Assembly (NCBI GenBank): GCA_028342535.1
Contig: JAOLWQ010000007.1
Location: 1-50,119, forward strand
Origin: Methylophilaceae bacterium
GTDB taxonomy: Bacteria; Pseudomonadota; Gammaproteobacteria; Burkholderiales; Methylophilaceae
Length of the DNA: 50,119 nt
Reading direction: 5' to 3'
A model generated the notes under the pieces. It saw only the letters and a program-made list of their open reading frames with translations, was not told where the DNA came from and did no database searches. Positions 3,202 through 23,153 of this stretch are shown piece after piece. How positions within the stretch are numbered: position 1 is the first letter of the stretch; the number at the start of each line of letters is the position of its first letter. The position numbers were made by a program, and so were the translations under genes.

Positions 3202-4062
3202 TTATAAAGTAGCTGATGTTATGAGAATTTTTATTTTTTTCATTGCATTTTTTTCAATTTGCCTAATACGTTCTGCAGACACTTTATATTTTTTTGCAAG
3301 ATTATGAAGTGTGTCAGGTTTATTTTCATTTAACCATCTTGCTTTAACAATTTCTCTACTTCTTATATCTAATTTCATGAGGGCATTTTTTAGGTTTCTT
3401 GTATTATTTGATTCAACTTCTGACTTTTCAATTTCTTCAGATGGCATTAGCGCTGAATCTTTTAAATAAGATATAGGACGAAATTGATCCTCTTCTGAAT
3501 CATCATTTGAATAATCAATTGATAACTCTTGTCCACTAAAACGAAACTCCATTTCACGAACTTCCTGCTCCTTGACGTTTAATTCTTTTGCAATTGATTT
3601 TATTTCTTCTAGACCTAGAGGTTGTAATGAAGATCTGAGGCTTCTAAGATTAAAGAATAATTTTCTTTGTGCTTTAGTTGTTGCCATTTTAACTAAGCGC
3701 CAATTTTTAACAACGTACTCTTGAATTTCTGCTTTTATCCAGAACATTGCATAAGATACTAATCTTACGCCTCGTTCAACATCGAATTTTTTAACAGCCT
3801 TCATTAATCCAATATTACCTTCTTGAACTAGGTCTGAGTGAGGAAGGCCATATCCGCTATATGATCTAGCAATTTTCATTACAAGTTTAAGATGTGAAAG
3901 AATAAGTTTTTTTGCAGCTTCTAAATCATTATCTTTTTTAAGGCGCATACCAAGCTCATATTCTTCTTCTTGGCTTAAGAAAGGGATTTCTCTGATAGAT
4001 TGTTCATAAGATGGAAAGCTATCAACATTTCCAGCAGATAATAAAGATAAATAATTATTCAT
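3202..4062 (-). CDS. rpoH: RpoH, heat-shock sigma factor (sigma-32)
   Basis: Alternative sigma factor that directs RNA polymerase to chaperone and protease genes. It has 286 residues, the normal size. Region 2 contains DLVQEGNIGLMKAVKKFD and SYAMFWIKAEIQEYVVKNW; directly after comes QRKLFFNLR, the RpoH-box that separates sigma-32 from other sigma-70 proteins. Region 4 ends with KYKVSAERIRQIEKNAMKK, the -35-binding helix-turn-helix. It follows ftsX on the same strand after an 98-nt gap that holds a CIRCE-like operator and a promoter, so it can be transcribed independently of ftsYEX. It probably continues into the DUF971-ubi genes, since no terminator is visible in the 57-nt gap after it. Confidence 0.98.
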   Translation of the reverse strand: MNNYLSLLSAGNVDSFPSYEQSIREIPFLSQEEEYELGMRLKKDNDLEAAKKLILSHLKLVMKIARSYSGYGLPHSDLVQEGNIGLMKAVKKFDVERGVRLVSYAMFWIKAEIQEYVVKNWRLVKMATTKAQRKLFFNLRSLRSSLQPLGLEEIKSIAKELNVKEQEVREMEFRFSGQELSIDYSNDDSEEDQFRPISYLKDSALMPSEEIEKSEVESNNTRNLKNALMKLDIRSREIVKARWLNENKPDTLHNLAKKYKVSAERIRQIEKNAMKKIKILITSATL

Positions 4063-4098: not shown

Positions 4099-4128
4099 AT
4101 TTTAGCACTCTTTATTAGAGAGTGCCAG
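4099..4128 (-). promoter_or_regulatory. Predicted sigma70-type promoter of rpoH
   Basis: On the minus strand, CTGGCA at 4128-4123 (4/6 to the -35 consensus), an 18-nt spacer, and TAAAAT at 4104-4099 (5/6 to the -10) preceded by TGC, which makes an extended -10. Transcription would start near 4092 and leave a leader of about 30 nt. The CIRCE-like repeat fills the same interval. Confidence 0.55.
4102..4128 (-). promoter_or_regulatory. CIRCE-like HrcA operator upstream of rpoH
   Basis: The plus strand reads TTAGCACTC, nine bases, then GAGTGCCAG. The HrcA operator consensus is TTAGCACTC-N9-GAGTGCTAA, so the left half matches 9/9, the spacer length is exact and the right half matches 7/9. It lies 40 nt upstream of the rpoH ATG and covers the predicted -35 to -10 of the rpoH promoter, an ideal position for repression. 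The repressor gene hrcA is in this window at 22143-23153. The match is seen directly; binding and repression are inferred. Confidence 0.85.
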
Positions 4129-4160
4129 CTTATATGAAAATATTGATTTAATACAGAGGT

Positions 4161-5072
4161 TTACTTAAATATTTCAAATTTTCTTATAGATTGGTGAGCA
4201 GCAAAAAAAGATGCGAAACAGCCAATTAGCATTGCAACTGAAATAATGCTTAGGTTTTGTTGCCATAATAGATTTTTTAGAATAAAAGTTCCACCGAGCA
4301 TGGCTTCTAGATTAATTGATGCCTTATTAAATATTTCAATAGTGAGCTTAAGGGTGAGAACAGTTATTAAACCTCCACCTAAACCATAAATTAATCCTGT
4401 ATAAATAAAAGGTCTTTGAATAAAGCTGTTCGTTGCCCCTATGAGCTTACTTACCTCTATTTCATCTTTATGTGTCAATGTTTGAAGGCGAATTGTATTG
4501 CCAATTACTACAATAAGAATAATTATTAATATAGCACCCAAAAAAGCCAATCCAATCTTTAATAGATATAAAATAGATCTTAATTTTTTGACCCAACCAG
4601 CATCAAAAAAAATATTTTCCACTCCATCAATTGTGCTTAAATCATCTATAAGAGTATTTATTTTTTTTTCATTAAATGTATTTAATGATATAAAAAAAGC
4701 ATCAGGTAATGGATTTTTTGATATTCCTGTATTTAAAGGGTTTAAGTTTAATTTTGTTTGTAATTTATCCCATGCCGTTAGCTTGCTTTCATAATGGGTT
4801 TTTTTAATTATTGATGCTTTATTTAAAGCAGATTGAATAAAGTCAATTTGATCTTGTTTAATTCCTTTTTCTAAAAACAGACTTAATTCTGCATCATATT
4901 TAATATTGTTTGAAATTTGAGAGACATTTTCTACGATTAATAAACCAGAGCTCGGTAAAAATAATGTGACACCTATAACTAAAAACATCATAAGAGAAGA
5001 GCCAAGGTTAGAAAAAATTCTAACTAGCGCTCTATTAAATGCTTGTAAATGATTATGAAAGTAATGGAACAT
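4161..5072 (-). CDS. ftsX: FtsX, cell division ABC-transporter permease-like protein
   Basis: Integral membrane partner of FtsE. FtsEX sits at the division septum and activates peptidoglycan amidases from inside the cell. The 303-residue protein has a first membrane segment at about residues 20-45, an extracytoplasmic domain of about 110 residues, and three further membrane segments (about 170-195, 220-245, 270-295), the FtsX four-segment layout. It starts 20 nt inside the end of ftsE. The conserved order ftsY-ftsE-ftsX-rpoH is intact. Confidence 0.95.
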   Translation of the reverse strand: MFHYFHNHLQAFNRALVRIFSNLGSSLMMFLVIGVTLFLPSSGLLIVENVSQISNNIKYDAELSLFLEKGIKQDQIDFIQSALNKASIIKKTHYESKLTAWDKLQTKLNLNPLNTGISKNPLPDAFFISLNTFNEKKINTLIDDLSTIDGVENIFFDAGWVKKLRSILYLLKIGLAFLGAILIIILIVVIGNTIRLQTLTHKDEIEVSKLIGATNSFIQRPFIYTGLIYGLGGGLITVLTLKLTIEIFNKASINLEAMLGGTFILKNLLWQQNLSIISVAMLIGCFASFFAAHQSIRKFEIFK

Positions 5073-5730
5073 TATTTATTTGGTCTCTTAATTGCCCTTC
5101 AATAAGGTGTATTTTTTTGTGCTTAATTGGAGTGATTGGAAGTTCGTGCGTTGAAATGATTACTGTTACCCCAACTTGTTGAAAACTATAAAAAATATTC
5201 ATAATTTCATCAGCATATTCTTTATCTAAATTTCCAGTAGGTTCGTCAGCGATTAAGATGGATGGACGTGAAACTATAGCTCTAGCAATAGCAAGTCTTT
5301 GTTGCTCTCCTCCAGAAAGTGAGATTGGCATTATTTTTTCCTTATTTAATAACCCAACTTTATCTAAAGCAGCGCGGACCCTTCGATTAATATCTATCCC
5401 ATCAATATCATTTATGGCTAAAGGTAAAGAAACATTTTCAAAACAGTTTCTATCGTAAAGTAATTTATTATCCTGAAAAATCATCCCAAATTTTCTTCTC
5501 AGATAAGGTATGTCTCTAGTCTCAAGTTGCGATAAATTCATATTTTCAAAAATTATATTTCCGGAAGTAGGCTTTTCAACTGAAGAAATTAATTTAAGTA
5601 AGGTTGATTTTCCAGCTCCTGAAGGCCCAGTTACGAAAACAAGCTCAGCAGGTAAGATTTCTAGGTTTATATTTTGTAAGGCATCCATATTTCCTGGGTA
5701 TCGTTTAAAGATTTTTTCAAAATTTATCAT
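5053..5730 (-). CDS. ftsE: FtsE, cell division ATP-binding protein
   Basis: ABC-type ATPase that pairs with FtsX at the septum. It has 225 residues. Walker A is GPSGAGKST near residue 36, the ABC signature is LSGGEQQR near 138, Walker B is ILIADEPTG near 160, and the switch histidine lies in STHELP near 194. The ATG overlaps the ftsY stop as ATGA and the 3' end overlaps ftsX by 20 nt, so the three genes are likely translated as one coupled unit. Confidence 0.96.
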   Translation of the reverse strand: MINFEKIFKRYPGNMDALQNINLEILPAELVFVTGPSGAGKSTLLKLISSVEKPTSGNIIFENMNLSQLETRDIPYLRRKFGMIFQDNKLLYDRNCFENVSLPLAINDIDGIDINRRVRAALDKVGLLNKEKIMPISLSGGEQQRLAIARAIVSRPSILIADEPTGNLDKEYADEIMNIFYSFQQVGVTVIISTHELPITPIKHKKIHLIEGQLRDQINNVPLLS

Positions 5731-6800
5731 TCAATCATTCCTTCTGCATATTCTTTAGCTTTAAATTCTTTAAGATCATCTATTCCTTCACCTACTCCAA
5801 TAAACCTGACTGGAGTAGGAAATTCTTTTGCTATGGCTGCTAAAACTCCACCTTTAGCGGTACCATCAAGTTTTGTCATTATAAGGCCTGTAATATTCAA
5901 AGCTTCGTTGAAAGCTTTGAGCTGAGTTATTGCATTTTGCCCAGTATTTGCATCCAAAACTAGTAATATTTCATGCGGAGCCCCTGCATGGCATTTGGAG
6001 ATAACTCTTTTAATTTTTGTAATCTCATCAATTAAATTTTTCTGTGTGGGAAGCCTACCTGCAGTATCAGCAATAACAACATCTATATTTTTTGCTTTAG
6101 CTGAATTTATAGCATCAAAAATAACTGAGCTGGGGTCAGCTGTTGCATGGGAAATTACGGTAACATTATTTCTTTCTCCCCAAACAGTAAGCTGCTCTGT
6201 TGCAGCAGCTCTGTAAGTATCTCCAGCTGCAATTAAAACTGTTTTACCCTCACCATGAAGAAATTTAGTAAGCTTGCCAATAGTTGTTGTTTTTCCTGTT
6301 CCATTGACTCCAACGACCATTATTACAAATGGCGATGTTCCATTAATTTTTAGGGGATATTCGATTGGAGTTAAAATTTCACTAAGACAATTTTTTAGAA
6401 TAACTTTTAATTTTAATTCATCTTTAATATTATTTTCTTTGACTTTCATTTTTACTTGCTGAATTAACATTTCAGTTGCCTTGAATCCAACATCTGCGGT
6501 AAGAAGAATTGTTTCAAGCTCCTCAAAAAAAACCTCATCAATTTTTTTATTATGGAATAAATCTGTAAGTTGACTACTTAAACTTTCTCTTGTTTTTGTT
6601 AATCCTTTTTTAATTTTCTCTGTAAAAGAAAAGAAACCTTTTTTTTCTTTTTTAGGTTTAGCAGCACTTACTTTAGGTTTAGCAGCACTTACTTTAGGTT
6701 TAGCAGCACTTACTTTAGGTTTTTTTAAGGCAGTAGTGGGCCGAGCCTTCTTTTTGGCTATTTTTGATTTTGGAATTAATTTTTTTAAAAATTCAAACAT
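5727..6800 (-). CDS. ftsY: FtsY, signal recognition particle receptor GTPase
   Basis: Docks signal-recognition-particle-bound ribosomes to the membrane translocon. It has 357 residues. The N-terminal 60 residues are a short basic region (MFEFLKKLIPKSKIAKKK, then KPKVSAA three times) replacing the long acidic A-domain of E. coli FtsY. The helical N domain follows (about 65-150), then the GTPase domain with G1 VGVNGTGKTTT, DTYRAAA, G3 DTAGRLPTQ and TKLDGTAKGG, ending in FIGVGEGIDDLKEF. It is the first gene of ftsY-ftsE-ftsX, divergent from the M16 peptidase genes with an 80-nt gap. The perfectly repeated 21-bp units in the 5' part of the gene suggest recent slippage; they keep the frame. Confidence 0.96.
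   Translation of the reverse strand: MFEFLKKLIPKSKIAKKKARPTTALKKPKVSAAKPKVSAAKPKVSAAKPKKEKKGFFSFTEKIKKGLTKTRESLSSQLTDLFHNKKIDEVFFEELETILLTADVGFKATEMLIQQVKMKVKENNIKDELKLKVILKNCLSEILTPIEYPLKINGTSPFVIMVVGVNGTGKTTTIGKLTKFLHGEGKTVLIAAGDTYRAAATEQLTVWGERNNVTVISHATADPSSVIFDAINSAKAKNIDVVIADTAGRLPTQKNLIDEITKIKRVISKCHAGAPHEILLVLDANTGQNAITQLKAFNEALNITGLIMTKLDGTAKGGVLAAIAKEFPTPVRFIGVGEGIDDLKEFKAKEYAEGMIE
6651..6722 (-). repeat. 21-bp tandem repeat inside ftsY
   Basis: Three identical 21-bp copies occupy 6651-6671, 6672-6692 and 6693-6713, followed by a 9-bp partial copy to 6722. Each unit encodes seven residues of the KPKVSAA type in the basic N-terminal tail of FtsY. The repeat length is a multiple of three, so copy-number changes would lengthen or shorten the tail without breaking the frame. 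Confidence 0.95.
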
Positions 6801-12742: not shown

Positions 12743-12768
12743 GTAGAGGTAATTCTTATTACCTCTAC
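12743..12768 (-). repeat. Perfect inverted repeat between dnaK and dnaJ
   Basis: GTAGAGGTAA at 12743-12752 and TTACCTCTAC at 12759-12768 pair perfectly with a 6-nt loop. On the transcribed strand there is no following U-run, so it is not a classic terminator. It lies 12 nt before the dnaJ ATG. It could be an mRNA-stabilising or processing hairpin that sets the DnaK:DnaJ ratio, as reported for dnaK-dnaJ junctions in other bacteria; the function here is inferred. Confidence 0.75.
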
Positions 12769-12795: not shown

Positions 12796-14724
12796 TTATT
12801 TTTTCTTATCGTCTTTCTTTACTTCTTCGAATTCAGCATCGACAACTTCAGCATCAACTGTCTTCTCCTTATTTTTATTATCCTCTTTTGGCTGTGCTTG
12901 AGCAGCTTGTTGATCAGCATGTATCTTCTCGCCAAGCTTTTGAGATACTTCAGCTAATATTTTATTTTTAGCTTCAATATCATCTTTTTTATCAGATTTT
13001 AAAGCTTCTTCAAGCTCACTAATAGCCTTCTCTATATTCACTTTCTCATCTTTTTCTACTTTATCAGGATTATCAGTCATCATTTTTTTAACTGAATGAA
13101 TCATCCCTTCTGAAAGATTTTTTGCGTCAACCAACTCTCTCAATTTTTTGTCTTCTTCAGCGTGAAGTTCAGCATCATCTTCCATTTTTTTAATCTCTTC
13201 TTCACTAAGACCACCACTTGATTTAATAACGATTTTATTTTCTTTGCCAGTAGCCTTATCTTTAGCATTGACATGTAAGATACCATTTGCATCAAGGTCA
13301 AAAGTAACCTCTATCTGAGGTGTTCCCCTAGGTGCTGCTGGTATTTCATTTAAATTAAATTGGCCTAAACTTTTATTACCTGTAGCCATTTCTCTTTCAC
13401 CTTGAAATACATTAATTGTTACAGCACTTTGGTTATCTTCTGCAGTTGAGAATGTTTGAGATTCCTTTGTTGGGATGGTGGTATTTTTTTTAATTAATTT
13501 TGTCATAACACCGCCCATTGTTTCAATTCCCAAGCTTAAAGGAGTAACATCCAATAACAACACATCCTTTACATCACCTTGAAGAACCCCTCCTTGAACC
13601 GCAGCACCAACTGCAACTGCCTCATCAGGATTAACATCTTTTCTTGGCTCAACTCCAAATATTTCTTTTACTTTTTCCTGAACTTTAGGCATTCTAGTTT
13701 GACCGCCAACAAGTATTACATCAGCAATTTCATTTGACGCCCCCGAATCTTTTATGGCTGTTTTACATGGAGCAATCGTTCGCTCTATCAGGTCTTCAAC
13801 TAAAGACTCAAGTTTTGCCCTGGTTAACTTAACGACTAAATGTTTTGGTCCAGAAGCATCCGCTGTTAAATAAGGTAAATTAACTTCTGTTTGTGTACTA
13901 CTTGATAGCTCAATCTTAGCTTTTTCTGCAGCTTCTTTTAACCTCTGTTTAACAAGCACATCTTTGCTGATGTCTACACCATTTTCTTTCTTGAATTCTT
14001 CTGCAAGAAAATCAATAATTCTATTATCAAAATCCTCACCACCTAGAAACGTATCTCCGTTTGTTGAAAGGACTTCAAACTGATGCTCACCATCTACACT
14101 TGATATTTCAATAATAGATACATCAAAGGTTCCACCCCCTAAGTCATAAACTGCAATTTTTCTATCACCTTCTTTTTTATCTAAACCAAAAGCTAATGCA
14201 GCAGCAGTTGGCTCATTAATAATTCTTTTAACTTCTAAACCAGCAATCCTGCCAGCATCTTTTGTAGCTTGTCTTTGGCTGTCATTAAAATATGCGGGCA
14301 CTGTAATAACTGCATCTGTAACCTCTTCACCTAGATAATCTTCTGCTGTTTTTTTCATCTTTCTCAAAATTTCTGCAGAAATTTGCGGTGGCGCCATTTT
14401 TTCTCCTTTAATTTCAACCCAAGCATCTCCATTATCTGCTTTTGAAATTTTGTATGGCATTAAACCTATATCTTTTTGAACTTCGTCTTCATCAAACTTT
14501 CTCCCGATTAGTCGTTTAACCGCATAGACAGTATTTTCAGGGTTTGTAACAGCCTGTCTTTTCGCAGGAGCACCAACAAGTGATTCTCCATCATCTTGGT
14601 AAGCAACAATTGAAGGGGTTGTTCTGGTTCCTTCAGTATTTTCAATTACTTTTGGTTTACCATTCTCCATAACGGAAACACATGAGTTTGTTGTTCCTAA
14701 ATCGATTCCAATAGTCTTTGCCAT
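12796..14724 (-). CDS. dnaK: DnaK, Hsp70 chaperone
   Basis: Main ATP-dependent chaperone of the cytoplasm. It has 642 residues. The nucleotide-binding domain begins [18 protein letters not shown] and includes the phosphate motif [12 protein letters not shown]; the linker [16 protein letters not shown] leads to the substrate-binding domain, and the lid ends in an acidic KEEDK-type tail ([16 protein letters not shown]). It lies between grpE and dnaJ. A second sigma32-type promoter sits across the grpE stop codon, so dnaK can be transcribed apart from grpE. Confidence 0.99.
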
Positions 14725-14764: not shown

Positions 14765-14792
14765 AAATAGTGATACTTAGATAAATTTCAAG
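14765..14792 (-). promoter_or_regulatory. Predicted sigma32 promoter upstream of dnaK
   Basis: Minus strand CTTGAAA (14792-14786), a 13-nt spacer, then CACTATTT (14772-14765). The sigma32 consensus is CTTGAAA-N13-14-CCCCATnT; the -35 matches 7/7, the -10 matches at most defined positions. The TGA inside CTTGAAA is the grpE stop codon, so the promoter begins within grpE. It would start transcription about 35 nt before the dnaK ATG. Confidence 0.65.
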
Positions 14793-15294
14793 CTTTTTTT
14801 TCTTTTTCTTTTGCAACTGATACTAATGCTGGCCTTAAAACCCTACCGTTTAATTTATATCCTTTTTGGAAAACAGAAAGAATTTTGTTTTGTTCTTCAT
14901 CTGAATCTATCATTGTCATTGCTTGATGAAAATTAGGATCAAATGTATCACCTTTAGGATCTAATTCCTCAATATTAAATTTTTCAAATACAGTGGCTAG
15001 TTGTTTTACAGTTAACTCAACCCCGTCTTTGTAGCTTTCTAATGTAGCATTTTCAATTATTAATGCTGCATCAAGACTATCTTTAACCAGTAATATTTCC
15101 TGGCTAAAACTTTCTATTGCGTATTTTCTAGTTTTCTCTGCTTCTTCTAAAGCCCTTTTCCTATTATTTTCAGATTCTGCTTTTGCATAAAGTACTTGTG
15201 CTTCTAACGCTTCAATTTTTGCAACTAAGTCTTTTTCTAGACTCTTTGGATTAGCTGCTTTCTTAGCTTTTTTCGCTGTTATTTTATCTGTCAT
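14788..15294 (-). CDS. grpE: GrpE, nucleotide exchange factor of DnaK
   Basis: Releases ADP from DnaK. It has 168 residues. A lysine-rich N terminus is followed by a long helix with AKAESENNRKRALEEAEKTRKYA and the C-terminal beta domain with DPKGDTFDPNFHQAMTMI and GYKLNGRVLRPALVSVA, the GrpE signature. It is the first gene of grpE-dnaK-dnaJ and is preceded by a strong sigma32-type promoter; the divergent neighbour is edd. Confidence 0.97.
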   Translation of the reverse strand: MTDKITAKKAKKAANPKSLEKDLVAKIEALEAQVLYAKAESENNRKRALEEAEKTRKYAIESFSQEILLVKDSLDAALIIENATLESYKDGVELTVKQLATVFEKFNIEELDPKGDTFDPNFHQAMTMIDSDEEQNKILSVFQKGYKLNGRVLRPALVSVAKEKEKKA

Positions 15295-22142: not shown

Positions 22143-23153
22143 CTACTTAATTGAATTGCTCAACAGTTTAGCAGTGATATCAACAATAGGAATAACTCTT
22201 TCATATGCCATCCTTGTTGGACCAATAACACCAAGCATTCCAAGAATTTCTCCATCAGCTTCGTATGGCGCTGTTATAACGCTGCATTCATCAAGTGCCT
22301 GATAGCCGGATTCTTCGCCAATAAAAATTTGTATACCATCAGCTCGATGACTTTTTTCTAGCAACTGAAGTAAAGCTGATTTTTTTTCGAAAATCTCAAC
22401 AATTTTTCTTACGCTAGAAACATTTTGAGAAAGTTCTGATGTGTCTAGTAGATTTTTTTGTCCTGACATAACTAAATTATCATTTTGATCAACATCGCTC
22501 GAAGTTTCAATCGCTGCATTCATAAGTGTCACCATTTCAGCTTTCATAGTTTTTAGCTCACTAACTAACTTGCCTTTGACTTGTTTAATATCAAATCCTG
22601 CATAATGTTGGTTAAAAAAGTTAGAAGCCTCTAAAAGGCTTTGTTTGGTGTAATCATTTTCTGTATATAACACTCTATTTTGAACGCCACCATCATCCGT
22701 AACAATGATAACTAAAATTCTATTTTTAGATAATTCAAGAAATTCAATGTGCTTAAAAGAAACCTTGCTAGCTCGAGGGATTAATACAACCCCTGCAAAT
22801 TTTGTTAAATGAGATAGCGTATCTGCTACAGAGTTTATTAAATGCTTACTATCAGAAACAATTAATTGATCTTTAAGTGTTGATATTTCTAATGCATTCA
22901 GTGACTTAATTGTAACTAAACTATCAACAAAGAATCTATATCCTTTTTGAGTTGGAATGCGGCCTGCGGATGTGTGTGGGCTTGTAATAAATCCAGCATC
23001 TTCGAGATCTTTCATTATATTTCTTATTGATGCCGGACTAAGGTCTAAGCTTGATGTATTTGCAAGCGTTTTTGAGCCGACAGGTTGTCCATCACCAATA
23101 TGATGGCTTATTAAAGTTTTTAACAGAGTTTGAGCTCTTTTATCTAAATCCAT
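22143..23153 (-). CDS. hrcA: HrcA, heat-inducible transcription repressor
   Basis: Represses chaperone genes by binding the CIRCE inverted repeat; activity is set by the GroEL chaperonin in studied species. It has 336 residues. The N-terminal winged helix has PVGSKTLANTSSLDLSPASIRN and the family hallmark ITSPHTSAGRIPTQKGYRFFVD; the rest is the GAF-like and dimerisation region ending IGPTRMAYERVIPIVD. It is divergent from nadK. No CIRCE element is visible before hrcA itself, but there is one before rpoH at 4102-4128. Confidence 0.97.
   Translation of the reverse strand: MDLDKRAQTLLKTLISHHIGDGQPVGSKTLANTSSLDLSPASIRNIMKDLEDAGFITSPHTSAGRIPTQKGYRFFVDSLVTIKSLNALEISTLKDQLIVSDSKHLINSVADTLSHLTKFAGVVLIPRASKVSFKHIEFLELSKNRILVIIVTDDGGVQNRVLYTENDYTKQSLLEASNFFNQHYAGFDIKQVKGKLVSELKTMKAEMVTLMNAAIETSSDVDQNDNLVMSGQKNLLDTSELSQNVSSVRKIVEIFEKKSALLQLLEKSHRADGIQIFIGEESGYQALDECSVITAPYEADGEILGMLGVIGPTRMAYERVIPIVDITAKLLSNSIK

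Follow-up and report, generated by a model that had tools for sequence, protein, structure and literature searches.

CIRCE upstream of rpoH and the probable control of the sigma32 gene by HrcA in a Methylophilaceae genome and its relatives

Genes and promoters of the window

The stretch of DNA analysed here, 50,119 nt in full and called the window below, carries rpoH, the gene for sigma32, on the minus strand at 3202..4062 (TIGR02392, 374 bits against a cut-off of 323; NF005143, 395 bits). One contig-database scan, from which very near records were possibly left out, gave 585 named RpoH loci; among the best 80 of these, the closest RpoH belongs to a Methylophilaceae bacterium and is 67% identical, which points to a probably small-genome species of this family as the source. 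Upstream on the same strand follow ftsX (4161..5072; TIGR00439, E 3.7e-70, 236 bits, short of the cut-off of 255), ftsE (5053..5730, minus strand; TIGR02673, 264.1 bits, marginally below the cut-off of 264.85) and an SRP54-type GTPase gene that is ftsY by position (5727..6800, minus strand; PF00448, 247 bits), giving the order ftsY-ftsE-ftsX-rpoH. The repressor gene hrcA lies on the minus strand at 22143..23153; its product matches TIGR00331 with 326 bits over residues 4-333 of 336, as well as PF01628, and is full length by the former, in agreement with an earlier reading made from the letters of the window alone (the sequence-only reading), which had described hrcA as intact.

Two further heat-shock genes of the window, grpE (14788..15294, minus strand) and dnaK (12796..14724, minus strand), are preceded by sigma32-like promoters. 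That of grpE, CTTGAAA-N13-CACCAT, ends 37 bp upstream of the gene and has 1 mismatch of 13, and the weaker one of dnaK has 2; the best candidates before hrcA and rpoH have 4 each. Among 500 segments of 200 nt from the window, just 1 reached 1 mismatch and 12 reached 2, so the grpE site is prominent and the dnaK site less so. No CIRCE at up to 3 mismatches was found upstream of grpE, dnaK or hrcA in scans of the window and the genome. The earlier description of grpE and dnaK as sigma32-dependent and free of CIRCE is thus retained for the missing operator and for the grpE promoter, the dnaK promoter being less distinct. The gap between dnaK and dnaJ contains a perfect inverted repeat, GTAGAGGTAAT-N4-ATTACCTCTAC (12743-12768), which is perhaps an attenuator or a processing hairpin.

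The CIRCE site before rpoH

Between ftsX and rpoH lies a predicted HrcA operator (CIRCE) at 4102..4128, minus strand, which reads CTGGCACTC-TCTAATAAA-GAGTGCTAA in the sense of rpoH and TTAGCACTC-TTTATTAGA-GAGTGCCAG (arm, 9-nt spacer, arm) on the plus strand. Compared with the operator of the HrcA/CIRCE regulon, TTAGCACTC-N9-GAGTGCTAA, it matches 16 of the 18 arm bases and has the exact spacer, so that the arms of 9/9 and 7/9 and the spacing given by the sequence-only reading are borne out. That reading had placed the element at 4099-4128; the site is there, its true start is 4102, and the three extra bases belong to a -10-like TAAAAT. Operators of this regulon overlap or follow the promoter of a heat-shock gene, and here CIRCE ends 39 bp before the rpoH ATG with the -10-like box at its edge. 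It is the sole match at up to 3 mismatches in the 50 kb window, where 0.01 are expected by chance and 1 of 100 shuffles gave a match. Both mismatches fall in the left arm and count against a role for HrcA; the sister genome G010 has a site with one mismatch. The same scan of the 1.19 Mb genome gave two CIRCE sites in all, with one match to a reversed-pattern control. The second (C11:172553-172579), on a different contig, is perfect and is followed 63 bp later by groES; the sequence-only reading did not include it.

Conservation of the operator and its tie to hrcA

Conservation was first assessed in an orthologue sample made up of the window's genome and 40 relatives; 37 of these 41 genomes have an RpoH orthologue, and the four without one (G002, G004, G009 and G030) are 60-84% complete. 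CIRCE is present within 400 nt upstream of rpoH in 37/37 orthologues, at 0-2 mismatches in 36 and at 4 in G033. The sequence-only reading had made its proposal depend on the repeat arms being conserved in relatives, and they are. In-frame TAG codons were recorded in rpoH of G008 and of G020, the latter merely the terminal stop. The 80 best of the 585 named RpoH loci fall into two separate groups, 66 with CIRCE at 0-3 mismatches and 14 at 7-9, with none between. Among the 14 are Halomonas, Salinicola, Aeromonas, Methylophaga and one Gallionella sp. (L095). The last is a betaproteobacterium; no hrcA was found in it, and its rpoH is preceded by GAACCT-N16-TCTCA and by no CIRCE. A CIRCE before rpoH does occur at a few loci that bear a gammaproteobacterial label, Thiohalomonas (L105) and a Chromatiaceae (L106) among them.

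For comparison of individual bases, 112 rpoH sites were assembled from the own genome and relatives (37), the named loci (66) and further hrcA-bearing loci (9). Outside this set stand the 14 named and 6 hrcA-less loci without CIRCE, which were counted separately, 20 loci fetched as rpoE-bearing controls (G219 included) and two further locus sets. The groES regions, in which the second CIRCE of a genome was identified as that of groES, comprise 40 from hrcA-bearing genomes plus the window's own, one of which, near a stretch edge, was dropped in alignment; 41/41 have a CIRCE at up to 4 mismatches. Among the 112 rpoH sites, which were themselves chosen at up to 4 mismatches, 15 of the 18 arm bases differ in only 0-3 sites, whereas the spacer is variable.

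The operator also keeps company with its repressor. In an order-wide sample of 200 genomes, scored for hrcA above the cut-off and for CIRCE at up to 2 mismatches, 173 have both, 24 neither, 2 hrcA only and 1 CIRCE only; that is, CIRCE occurs in 173/175 hrcA-bearing and 1/25 hrcA-less genomes (Fisher 1e-27, kinship ignored), so that operator and repressor are jointly present or absent, as in the known regulon. G103, with a weak hrcA match below the cut-off, was counted as hrcA-less. The two hrcA-only genomes are G192, whose rpoH CIRCE has 3 mismatches (L126), and G054, in which no rpoH was found. G194, with one CIRCE and no detectable hrcA, counts against the HrcA reading. Per genome, two CIRCE sites are the rule (152 of the 200), while 14 genomes have one, 8 have three and 26 have none; a reversed pattern gave 0 or 1 match per genome. 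Fourteen genomes behind the named loci, for which completeness is not given, agree: all 5 with an rpoH CIRCE (of the 66 CIRCE-bearing loci) have hrcA, and in all 9 without (of the 14 CIRCE-less loci) hrcA was not found. Six of the 25 hrcA-less genomes were read upstream of rpoH, and none contains a CIRCE there with fewer than 5 mismatches. One of these genomes, G058, has arms with 5 mismatches and yet carries GAACTT and TAAAAT; 5 sampled congeners have kept both hrcA and CIRCE. The 25 hrcA-less genomes belong to 9 families, and in 6 of these hrcA is kept by other sampled members, which offers a natural experiment on the circuit.

Promoter-like boxes interleaved with the operator

Within the window's site, a -35-like CTGGCA (4123..4128, minus strand) inside the left arm and a -10-like TAAAAT (4099..4104, minus strand), half of it in the right arm, would make up a sigma70-type promoter; the sigma-70-like pattern of the order at large is TTRGCA-N18-TAAAAT. 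The third base 3' of CIRCE is T in 109/112 rpoH sites versus 5/40 groES sites, and A occupies the second position in 92% of the rpoH sites; together with the right arm this gives TAAAAT or TAATAT. Base 3 of the left arm is not A in 33/112 rpoH sites, 32 of these having G and hence TTGGCA or CTGGCA; its mirror base in the right arm deviates in 0/112. At groES sites the same two bases deviate in 5/41 and 4/41. This one-sided change suggests that the arms of the window's site match at 9/9 and 7/9 because the weaker one also has to serve as a -35 box. At groES, a sigma32-like promoter (by column majorities, GAAA at -26 to -23 and CCCTATTA at -8 to -1) ends where CIRCE starts. The rpoH and groES sites differ in design.

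Many relatives have, in addition, a sigma-E-type promoter motif at rpoH, defined here as GAACTT (up to 1 mismatch)-N15-17-TCNNA. It is present at 66/112 rpoH CIRCE sites, where shuffling predicts 2.3, and at 0/40 groES sites. The motif threads through CIRCE or abuts it in a fixed register: of the 66 sites, 48 have the start of the -10 at CIRCE base 8, 8 have it at base 10, 6 have it five bases before CIRCE and 4 have it elsewhere. In Bordetella (L080), GAACTT-N16-TCGAA stands immediately before CIRCE. A GAACTT at up to 1 mismatch lies near the equivalent of 4137..4145 (minus strand) in 74/112 rpoH sites; in the window this place reads CAATATTTT and is degenerate, and no sigma-E-like motif was found upstream of its rpoH even with 2 mismatches allowed in GAACTT. 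By source, the motif is found at 11/22 sites of the window's genus and at 42/66 of the CIRCE-bearing loci among the best 80 of 585. The sequence-only reading, which had CIRCE spanning -35 to -10 of rpoH, is upheld in the conserved overlap with a -10-like box and has to be widened in that the promoter is not just sigma70-like in many relatives.

The motif is not confined to genomes with the operator. It lies within 350 nt upstream of rpoH at 12/14 of the CIRCE-less named loci (0.7 by shuffling; 0/300 shuffles reach 12), which indicates that the promoter is more widespread than the operator and that the latter was seemingly superimposed on it. It is likewise found within 350 nt upstream of rpoH in 3/6 hrcA-less genomes (0.5 by shuffling; 4/300 shuffles reach 3), where the promoter seems to have outlived the operator; the other 3 have neither CIRCE nor motif. 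Outside the window's genus, the motif accompanies 27/42 rpoH CIRCE sites in rpoE-bearing genomes versus 1/12 rpoE-less genomes (Fisher 0.0007, kinship ignored), the 42 being made up of relatives (5/14), further hrcA-bearing loci (8/9) and added rpoE-bearing controls (14/19). The 12 rpoE-less, hrcA-bearing genomes (G033, G055, G096, G115, G116, G149, G163, G177, G204, G215, G219 and G223) span 6 families, of which f10 accounts for 5 genomes and f31 for 3. The single one with the motif, G163, is an assembly in 680 contigs; in G055, G096, G215 and G223, where the CIRCE of rpoH was not singled out, neither CIRCE has the motif in either direction. In the window's own assembly (G000; 17 contigs, 93% complete) neither rpoE nor lepA was found. 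The usual neighbour of rpoE is lepA, so one gap could hide both genes, and an assembly gap is as likely as loss. Loss of rpoE was accordingly dropped as the cause of the degenerate GAACTT box.

Interpretation

Very probably, 4102-4128 serves HrcA as the operator from which it represses rpoH at the level of transcription. The site looks like a genuine CIRCE and is common to most sampled relatives, which makes it very likely that HrcA holds rpoH in check, and support for this proposal of the sequence-only reading comes from the conserved arms, the absence of the site where hrcA is absent and the overlap with a conserved -10-like box. That the inverted repeat is instead the terminator of ftsX or an mRNA hairpin, with no protein bound to it, is hardly credible. 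The repeat does lie 32 bp past the ftsX stop codon; no T run follows it, however, and a hairpin predicts free change in the arms with pairing preserved, which is absent from sites, chosen at up to 4 mismatches, in which 15 of 18 arm bases are near-invariant and the spacer is the variable part. The repeat is moreover gone where hrcA is gone, and the terminator was rejected on this tie together with the conservation of bases. A somewhat less remote, though still improbable, alternative is that the rpoH site is a nonfunctional relic in a streamlined genome and that HrcA binds at groES only. In its favour are the two left-arm mismatches in the window, compared with one in the sister genome G010, but the same CTGGCACTC arm occurs in the hrcA-bearing genomes G060, G083, G116 and G177, the change at base 3 is one-sided as overlap with a promoter would lead one to expect, and the 6 sites from hrcA-less genomes carry at least 5 mismatches.

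Control by HrcA may also be part of a larger arrangement. In this extension of the HrcA explanation, which we consider rather more probable than not, the operator is interleaved across the order with sigma-70-like and sigma-E-type promoters, from which either sigma factor would fire only with HrcA off, making rpoH a gate; in the lineage of the window, HrcA and the sigma-70-like promoter would have been retained and the sigma-E promoter would have disappeared. The enrichment of the motif at rpoH over groES sites, its occurrence at rpoH loci that lack CIRCE or hrcA and its association with rpoE all favour it, as does the in vitro transcription of the rpoH (fam) promoter by SigE of Bordetella bronchiseptica (PMC3490749). 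It has to contend with the 46/112 rpoH sites that lack the motif, several of them despite rpoE, with the low count (only 5) in the first 14 rpoE-bearing relatives from the order, with four genomes (G025, G031, G032 and G036) that have no GAACTT in the 25 nt viewed, with the narrow spread of the rpoE-less genomes over families, and with the window itself, which has no motif. A bolder form of the same idea, for which the chances are about even, treats the rpoH control region as one composite element, present in much of the order and in some gammaproteobacteria: an HrcA operator whose left arm also acts as a -35, whose right edge also acts as a -10 and whose centre also acts as the sigma-E -10. 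Such an element would merge the folding state sensed by GroE and HrcA, the envelope stress sensed by sigma-E and housekeeping transcription, so that synthesis of sigma32 would be controlled at transcription and not mainly through a thermometer in the mRNA. Six genomes from the window's genus (L010-L014 and L021) have the rpoH ATG just 9-10 nt 3' of CIRCE, and the message would be leaderless or nearly so if transcription starts about 7 nt after TAAAAT; this is in keeping with transcriptional control of sigma32. A thermometer at the 5' end of the window's rpoH was set aside, the 60 nt from the supposed start folding with an unremarkable -2.2 kcal/mol, a value taken without shuffle comparison.

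Returning to repression by HrcA, the protein would occlude the -35 and -10 of rpoH when it occupies 4102-4128 and thereby block RNA polymerase. With GroE occupied by unfolded protein, or HrcA inactivated by heat, repression would be released and both rpoH and groESL would open; the sigma32 then made would drive grpE, dnaK and groESL. The second CIRCE, just 3' of the sigma32-like promoter of groESL, would put that operon under direct HrcA repression as well. HrcA activity is raised by GroE and lost on heating, and GroE raises HrcA binding in Campylobacter, with a like effect cited for Bacillus and Chlamydia (PMC8533110). By analogy with these three, GroE would close the loop here, feeding back via HrcA on its own operon and on the sigma factor gene. 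The two-tier circuit proposed earlier, in which HrcA represses rpoH and RpoH drives DnaK and GrpE, is supported in its upper tier; it is not a pure chain, because groESL, with its perfect CIRCE, is also an HrcA target. What emerges is a small circuit in which one repressor would set both the chaperonin and the master heat-shock regulator.

Comparison with known systems

The arrangement predicted for much of this large order, a chaperonin-sensing repressor on a sigma factor gene, differs from the textbook picture of sigma32 control. That picture comes from E. coli, where HrcA is absent and rpoH is governed largely via mRNA and protein stability. In Bacillus subtilis, HrcA acts on groE and on the hrcA-dnaK operon and thus regulates its own gene. 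The window shares with that regulon the operator, the repressor family and the presumed dependence on GroE; it differs in that its hrcA has no CIRCE and in that the repressor stands above a sigma factor. E. coli also has rpoHP3, a sigma-E-dependent rpoH promoter. Permina and Gelfand 2003 reportedly deals, by its title, with the beta-proteobacteria and may list rpoH, so a betaproteobacterial rpoH CIRCE may already be in print. In the open-licence literature, no statement was found that HrcA acts on rpoH in betaproteobacteria, nor any description of CIRCE/HrcA and sigma-E joined at rpoH. The sigma-E-dependent promoters of E. coli rpoHP3 and of Bordetella bronchiseptica fam (PMC3490749) have the same target gene, rpoH, and belong to the promoter class seen in many relatives, unlike the window, which lacks the motif; neither HrcA nor CIRCE occurs in the main text of PMC3490749.

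The rpoH CIRCE of the window is thus a known kind of site, widely conserved, and the composite of HrcA, sigma-E and sigma-70 elements is the part for which no description was found. The sequence-only reading had called HrcA control of a sigma32 gene much less familiar than control of groE or dnaK; a CIRCE before rpoH has nevertheless been in print since 2004, as a prediction tabulated for Geobacter sulfurreducens (Rodionov et al. 2004, PMC545781, Table 8). Operator and target are alike in the two cases and the distance is similar, the Geobacter site being at position -51. Geobacter sulfurreducens differs in having a CIRCE with its hrcA-grpE-dnaK-dnaJ genes as well (PMC545781), whereas in the genome of the window only the sites before groES and rpoH were found.
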